In this document: positions 4,736 through 6,084 of the stretch, piece after piece
Layout: each line of letters opens with the position of its first letter
Position numbering within the stretch: position 1 is the stretch's first letter
Assembly: GCA_031284865.1 (NCBI GenBank)
Contig: JAITXG010000008.1
Location: forward strand, 1 to 46,689
Direction: 5' to 3'
Length of the DNA: 46,689 bases
Origin: Mycoplasmataceae bacterium
Lineage (GTDB): Bacteria; Bacillota_I; Bacilli_A; Mycoplasmatales; Mycoplasmoidaceae
The notes under the pieces: generated by a model
Seen by the model: the letters and a program-made list of their open reading frames with translations, nothing else
The model's database searches: none
Told to the model about the DNA's origin: nothing
Made by a program: the position numbers and the translations under genes

Positions 4736-6031
4736 TTAGGCAACTACGGTAACGTGTGTTTCCCTAGGACAATCAGCCATACCTACCATTCAAAATAAGT
4801 CAGGTAAGCAATTACCACGGCCTTCAACATTATCTCCAGAGTCATAAGCTGCAGTACGTTTTGCCCAGTCAGTTGCATTCTGAGCACTTCCAGCATGAAA
4901 TTGTTCAATTTCTAAATTACCAAATATAAAAACATCTAGTCCATCATCGTATGAGAAGATCTCTCCTAAGATAGCGTCAATAAACTCATTAATTAATTCA
5001 GCGGGGATGTATTCGTCAATAAAAGTAAATAGATTATCAACATATTCTTTAATTTGTTCATCCGCACCCTCGAAACTGTTTCAATATGTTATATCGCTTG
5101 GTTTACAATTTCAATATAAATTTTTAATTCTTGATCCATTAAATGCTTCTCATGTCAATGAAGTAATAGTGCTTGGCAGTCATACATCGTTATTAGGCAT
5201 CTGTCATCTACCAATTCCTCAATGGCCGATTGTGGTTAATGCTTTTAATCCCCTTAAATCCATATCACACGAAATATAAGCGTCTTCCATGATGTCATCC
5301 GCTATTCTATCTCAACGTGTATTGTTTTCTGGTCATATGAATTTATCAACATTTTGGAATGCAAAATTATAGTTATACGCCCCACGTAACGGGTTACCTT
5401 TTAAAAATTCATCTTCGCCATCACAATAAAGGTTACATTTCGACATATCAACTTTAATGTGTGGATATTTAGCCTGTCTTCCAGTATAGTCCTCAATTGA
5501 ATTAACACATTCGGGCAACATTTGAGTTGGTATCAATCCGAATCACGAGCAAGCCGAATTAAACATTGTTCGTAATGTTGATGGTAAAGTAAAATCGTAA
5601 TCATATTTAGAACCGTTTTGAAGACTTCAGTCGTCGAATATCTCTTTCCCAAAGCATTCTTGTCCAAGCGCAATTACATCATATTTTTTACCATTAACTT
5701 TATAGCTGTCAGCAATGTTTATATAAACAGTTTTACCATTGTTAGTTAATCGTGGCTTGTTTTCTCAACCAAGAATAATAATTCCTTCTTTAGTACCATC
5801 ATTGTCACTAAGGTGAGTCTTAATAGCGTTAGCATCAATCTGAAGATCATCTTTAATGTAATCATTTATACTAGACACTTGGTAAGCAAAATCACTTAAA
5901 GGATTATGTGAAACGGTTTTGCAAGAAGAAAGTGTTGTAGAAACTGCTATCCCGGTTGATATACCTAGCGCTCCTAAGCATAAGGTTGTAATAATTCTAT
6001 TTTTTTTTCATAATTCTAAGATTATATACAT
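4736..6031 (-). CDS. Putative lipoprotein, possibly phase-variable at an A9 tract
   Basis: Unrecognised lipoprotein. The frame is open from TAA (4736-4738) up to 6031, with several TGA tryptophans. A basic KKNR, a hydrophobic stretch and the lipobox LSSC mark an exported lipoprotein, and the mature part is acidic and Asn/Asp-rich. The start is the odd point. ATG at 6011 is followed by nine A residues (6000-6008) and reads M-K-K-K-stop; with eight A it would read M-K-K-N-R-I-I-T-T into the lipobox. The frame that is open now needs ATG at 6031 and begins MYIILELWKKNR, a poor signal N-region. The TATAAT box at 6021-6026 lies between the two ATGs, so the mRNA would start after the 6031 codon. The gene may therefore be switched off here, or the tract may hold a base error. 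Confidence 0.75.
6000..6008 (-). repeat. A9 homopolymer at the start of a lipoprotein gene
   Basis: Nine consecutive A on the minus strand directly follow the ATG at 6011. Loss of one A joins this ATG to the lipobox frame; with nine A the codons are ATG AAA AAA AAA TAG. A tract placed this way can act as an on/off switch by replication slippage. Confidence 0.7.
6021..6026 (-). promoter_or_regulatory. -10 box of the lipoprotein gene
   Basis: TATAAT on the minus strand ends 10 bases before the ATG at 6011. A TTGTGA sits 19 bases upstream as a possible -35. The predicted start lies between the ATG at 6031 and the ATG at 6011, so a transcript from here would contain only the second. Confidence 0.5.
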
Positions 6032-6084
6032 GTTTATGTATGATCTCACAATTCTTTTTGTAACTATTTATTTGGCTTTTAAGT

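Follow-up and report, generated by a model that had tools for sequence, protein, structure and literature searches.

A Poly-A Tract at the Start of a Lipoprotein Gene as a Possible On/Off Switch in an Uncultured Mycoplasmataceae Bacterium

Main finding

In an uncultured Mycoplasmataceae bacterium, from a lineage known only from metagenome assemblies, we found a lipoprotein gene whose very probable start codon is directly followed by a run of nine adenines that leaves the rest of the gene out of frame. The reading that we consider best supported, and moderately probable, is that this A9 tract acts as a poly-A contingency site, at which slipped-strand mispairing toggles a surface lipoprotein, and that the assembly caught the gene in its OFF state. 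The evidence that supports such a switch consists of the tract and the frames around it, a promoter-like sequence, the rarity of long A/T runs in this genome, intact orthologs, the failure to detect MutS in the genus, and a separate family of lipoprotein genes with poly-G tracts; the evidence on tract length comes from a single assembly that is 81% complete. If this reading is true, slippage-driven lipoprotein switching, best known from vertebrate mycoplasmas, would also operate in an uncultured Mycoplasmataceae lineage, and the genome would then combine this poly-A switch with its poly-G lipoprotein family.

The A9 tract and its reading frames

Read directly, the minus strand from position 6049 is GTGAGATCATACATAAACATGTATATAATCTTAGAATTATG-A9-TAGAATTATT (Table 1). 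Exactly nine A's lie immediately 3' of ATG 6011 and are followed by an in-frame TAG, so that translation from this ATG yields a peptide of 4 aa (MKKK) and a stop, whereas one A fewer gives a 424-codon lipoprotein frame (MKKNRII...TLSSC), consisting of MKKNRIITTLCLGALGISTGIAVSTTLSSC and a mature part that extends to 4736. The preliminary description had stated that nine A's give M-K-K-K-stop and eight a normal lipoprotein signal, and the direct reading confirms this. It had further stated that a remaining frame of 430 codons is intact; the intactness holds, with orthologs that are full length, but the frame has 424 codons and not 430. No further damage is seen in these codons, and both the promoter-like sequence and the lipobox are intact. 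Followed upstream, the post-tract frame stays open through ATG 6031 as far as GTG 6049, for a total of 437 aa, which include 13 TGA codons read as Trp. Since the first in-frame start codon 3' of the tract, GTG 5878, lies behind the lipobox Cys codon (5923-5921), re-initiation cannot yield a lipoprotein.

Table 1. Sequence features at the 5' end and in the body of the lipoprotein gene
Feature	Positions	Strand	Basis
-35-like hexamer GTGAGA, which begins with the in-frame GTG 6049	6044..6049	-	Promoter scan, sequence
-10 hexamer TATAAT, in the codons right after the alternative start ATG 6031	6021..6026	-	Promoter scan, sequence
Alternative in-frame ATG, giving MYIILELWKKNRII..., 36 residues to the lipobox Cys	6029..6031	-	Translation, start survey
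Start codon, probably leaderless; the -10 hexamer ends 9 nt before it	6009..6011	-	Gap histogram, genus survey
A9 tract (T9 on the plus strand), codons 2-4, then in-frame TAG; proposed slippage site	6000..6008	-	Sequence, frames
Remaining signal peptide with lipobox L-S-S-C; Cys codon 5923-5921	5921..5999	-	Translation, position
Intact downstream frame, probably a diverged BspA-type LRR-like surface lipoprotein; stop 4738-4736	4736..5999	-	Frame, homology

The protein, its orthologs, and recent loss of function

The signal peptide with its LSSC lipobox lies in the downstream frame, its Cys is conserved in the orthologs, and the protein is predicted to be located at the cell surface. No family was matched in Pfam or NCBIfam, and a sequence profile search of the PDB found none; an AlphaFold2 model built from three sequences had a pLDDT of 34 and was unusable for fold assignment. 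Residues 152 to 321 align with a BspA-type LRR_5 protein of a congener (G022), and a diverged LRR-like surface lipoprotein would be a fair description of the product. Intact orthologs, 46 to 47% identical over the full length, occur in two congeners (G005 and G023); a third, in G003, is split, and G011 has a more distant relative. In the split ortholog (L099, G003:C13, around 544), the gene is broken into two frames at a mid-gene A7 tract. A scan of genome contigs with the single protein as the query found no relative, and the same scan with the alignment as the query recovered the same three congeners, all of them Mycoplasmataceae metagenome-assembled genomes.

The orthologs bear on whether the frame break is a switch or a recent loss of function, in which one A was inserted in a slippage-prone tract and the gene is an early pseudogene rather than a selected switch. 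We regard the latter as unlikely, though the likeliest of the alternatives. The gene is accessory, with orthologs over most of its length in only 3 of 35 congeners, and the mid-gene A7 break in G003, which demonstrates that the same kind of mutation can lose the gene, fits the simple decay of a dispensable gene. The tract is, moreover, not a conserved feature: the starts in G005 and G023 have a leader with a Shine-Dalgarno (SD)-like sequence together with A7 and A6 tracts, and the G003 ortholog has no tract at its start. A comparison of the tract in related genomes had been proposed at the outset, and its outcome, that the tract is not kept at the same place, goes against the switch. Against a null allele, however, stand the otherwise undamaged codons, promoter-like sequence, and lipobox, and an indel of this kind could itself revert.

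Rarity of long A/T runs, mismatch repair, and assembly error

The genome strongly avoids long A/T runs, which are about tenfold under expectation: only 9 runs of at least 9 were observed in the 629,807 bases sampled, versus 89.9 expected under a first-order Markov model. Within the window (the whole 46.7-kb stretch of DNA that was analyzed), the A9 tract is the only such run, with 6.7 expected under the same model, and the combination of ATG and A9 occurs a single time in the whole genome. The MutS_V domain was absent in all 36 genomes of the genus searched, while the control search detected it in 11 of 14 reference genomes. Loss of mismatch repair raises homopolymer slippage.

In an ABC-2 type permease gene (L018, G000:C9, 537-546), the frame is broken near the N terminus by a T10 run on the gene strand; the initial frame, MNFTYYRFLIATLIKRKGTWVIGG..., stops directly behind the run, and the family match continues in another frame. 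The proposition that all other coding A/T runs of at least 9 are in frame was rejected on account of this gene. In total, two of six coding A/T tracts break the frame, and both of the genes concerned encode membrane or surface proteins, a proportion that is compatible with contingency loci, decay, or error in a sample too small to discriminate among them.

The permease also counts against the switch, in that poly-A/T frame breaks, or assembly errors at such runs, extend beyond lipoproteins. An error of assembly or sequencing, by which a tract that is really A8 was read as A9 in a gene that is simply ON, is suggested by this second out-of-frame coding run (L018:537) and by the nature of the source, a draft metagenome-type assembly of 54 contigs. 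However, each of four housekeeping genes (rluD/C, truA, glyS, and sdaA types) has a coding A9/A10 tract and keeps its frame, indicating that the assembly at least usually handles such tracts, and the A8 to A10 starts of congeners are in frame wherever the ATG heads a gene. We rate an error as improbable.

Start codon usage

The choice of the start codon determines whether the A9 tract breaks the frame. The highest-scoring promoter match near the gene on the minus strand, and the only strong one, is GTGAGA-17-TATAAT (10 of 12 positions), whose -35 element begins at GTG 6049, whose -10 element covers the codons after ATG 6031, and whose TATAAT ends 9 nt before ATG 6011. Because this promoter overlies both GTG 6049 and ATG 6031, an mRNA made from it cannot start translation at either of them. 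In a genome-wide gap histogram, limited to genes with intergenic sequence upstream, 42 TA[ATC]AAT hexamers end 5 to 9 nt before gene ATGs, against a background of ~7 per 5-nt bin at distances of 40 to 74 nt. The hexamers placed 6 to 9 nt before an ATG almost all lack an SD-like motif, and many of them head housekeeping genes. The claim that, given the TATAAT, the mRNA begins at ATG 6011 or slightly upstream of it is thus supported both by the promoter scan and by the common TATAAT-to-ATG gap in this genome. ATG 6011 itself has the leaderless arrangement, with a -10 hexamer within 5 to 10 nt (gap, 9 nt) and no SD sequence. Leaderless-like transcripts are reported to make up 16% of those of Mycoplasma pneumoniae and about 18% in some mycoplasmas (PMC10568206). 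The layout with TATAAT 6 to 9 nt before ATG and no SD sequence is common in the genus and includes housekeeping-type genes, e.g., alaS-like ones (L010-L067; congeneric loci L115-L144).

Per-genome counts across the 36 genomes of the genus showed that the pattern TATAAT-N5-12-ATG-A7 is far more frequent than its reversed control. Among the loci read, sites with this layout that head a frame of at least 100 codons, in this genome or in congeners, have the ATG in that frame in 22 cases, the present gene being the only exception. This genome contains three such sites, all in lipoprotein genes: one with A8 in frame (a GDPD-type lipoprotein; L043:10061), one with A7 in frame (L060:12141), and the present one with A9 out of frame. 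The congeneric loci read contained no other gene with an out-of-frame ATG-A7+ start of this kind, and a test of whether out-of-frame ATG-A9 starts recur across the genus likewise found none in those loci. The distance from the initiator Met to the lipobox Cys is 30 residues in the orthologs of G005 and G023, 29 in the A8 reading, and 36 from ATG 6031. Together, the promoter position, the leaderless layout, the 22-site survey, and the Cys distances of the orthologs indicate that translation very probably starts at ATG 6011 and that the A9 tract is a frame break.

That the gene is simply ON, with ATG 6011 irrelevant and translation from ATG 6031 (or GTG 6049) on an mRNA whose promoter lies further upstream, is very unlikely: the frame is indeed open from GTG 6049, and 36 residues to the Cys are within the range of this genome (24 to 38), but both codons lie inside the only strong promoter match, the N-terminal region MYIILELWKKNR is unlike those of the orthologs, which begin with MKK or MTK and reach the Cys 25 to 31 residues on, and the ATG after TATAAT gave the correct frame in 22 of 22 other genes of the same layout. 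Leaderless starts matter for annotation here because an upstream start would mask the A9 frame break; a standard gene caller would choose ATG 6031 or GTG 6049, call the gene intact, and hide the putative OFF switch.

Proposed mechanism and comparison with known systems

In the proposed contingency mechanism, transcription would begin at or next to ATG 6011 and give a leaderless mRNA. With nine A's, translation would end after MKKK, and with eight, the lipoprotein signal and the 424-codon protein would be made. The A9 and A8 states would interconvert in cells by DNA slippage, and the switching might benefit the cell.

The gene might instead be expressed despite the A9 tract, if RNA polymerase slippage or -1 ribosomal frameshifting on A-AAA-AAA restored the frame in a fraction of the products. 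Bacterial transcription slippage on 9-A runs is on record, with 12 to 50% corrected transcripts in insect endosymbionts, and the slippage-rescued frameshifts of Buchnera and Blochmannia likewise lie in genes that are intact except for an out-of-frame poly-A run (PMC5009743); slippage also grows exponentially with run length (PMC5574713). The ribosomal shift needed would be -1, and a slippery A7 (A-AAA-AAA) stands just before the TAG stop. The heptamer is read from the sequence, and its out-of-frame arrangement is not conserved in the orthologs. Homopolymer deletions in transcripts are, however, rarer than insertions (PMC5574713), although +2 insertions would also serve. Buchnera is rich in long A/T runs (PMC2831843), whereas the present genome strongly avoids them and the present case is known from DNA only. 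Such rescue as the explanation of the locus strikes us as highly doubtful. Slippage at both levels can also be envisaged: RNA polymerase slippage in the earliest transcribed bases would leak in-frame mRNA at a low level in every OFF cell, while DNA slippage would set a fully ON or a mostly OFF state. Such a leak is conceivable because a leaderless transcript would carry the A9 tract at about +4 to +12, where it can span the entire 9-bp RNA-DNA hybrid; we give this dual-level switch a slim chance.

If the A9 tract is a contingency site, the gene would work like three known systems. The vaa gene of Mycoplasma hominis is reported to be ON at A8 and OFF at A7 or A9, with switching at 10^-3 to 10^-4 (PMC524362). 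Common to both are a surface lipoprotein, a poly-A tract near the 5' end, and a one-base frame toggle; the present gene differs in encoding another protein, in having the tract as codons 2 to 4, where the signal peptide begins, in a gene that is probably leaderless, and in that its reversible switching is at this point only proposed. Of the features that define a vaa-like switch, the present gene has a 5' homopolymer in which a one-base change toggles the frame, a lipoprotein product, and an otherwise intact gene and promoter; retention of the tract in orthologs, a supporting but not strictly defining feature, is not seen. The ABC transporter lipoprotein gene p78 of Mycoplasma fermentans is turned OFF by a one-base frameshift in a 5' A7 tract (PMC2831843), that is, by the same kind of 5' poly-A frameshift in a lipoprotein, but the gene and the tract length are different, and what is experimental there is predicted here. 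The swrA gene of Bacillus subtilis has the same one-base frameshift between A9 and A8 at its 5' end, with 9-to-8 changes at about 10^-4 and 8-to-9 changes at about 10^-5 (PMC2831843), but its product is not a surface lipoprotein and the organism is unrelated.

Other homopolymer tracts in the same genome

Three tandem lipoprotein genes (L033, G000:C22, 4372-6519) carry G8, G9, and G10 tracts at the same codon position (tracts at 4858, 5582, and 6307). The G8 copy loses its frame right after the tract, and the G9 and G10 copies remain open throughout. The tract is missing from two more distant family members (C10 and C36), and the family had no match among the 35 congeners. These tandem genes are a candidate phase-variable family, and the slippage-type homopolymer tracts that the preliminary description had invoked for mycoplasma lipoprotein genes are thus independently present in the same genome.

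Two further tracts lie in putative promoters. An A18 run between TTGAC and TATGAT is found upstream of a small membrane protein gene (L039, G000:C28, 8405-8422), where, as a promoter-spacer tract, it could act as a transcription switch. Another lipoprotein gene, MKKIKLITALVGIVG..., has a T16 run (A16 on the gene strand) at the -35 site, 18 nt upstream of its TATAAT (L029, G000:C10:40001-60000, 1262-1277). Both resemble the promoter-spacer switching of other mycoplasmas.
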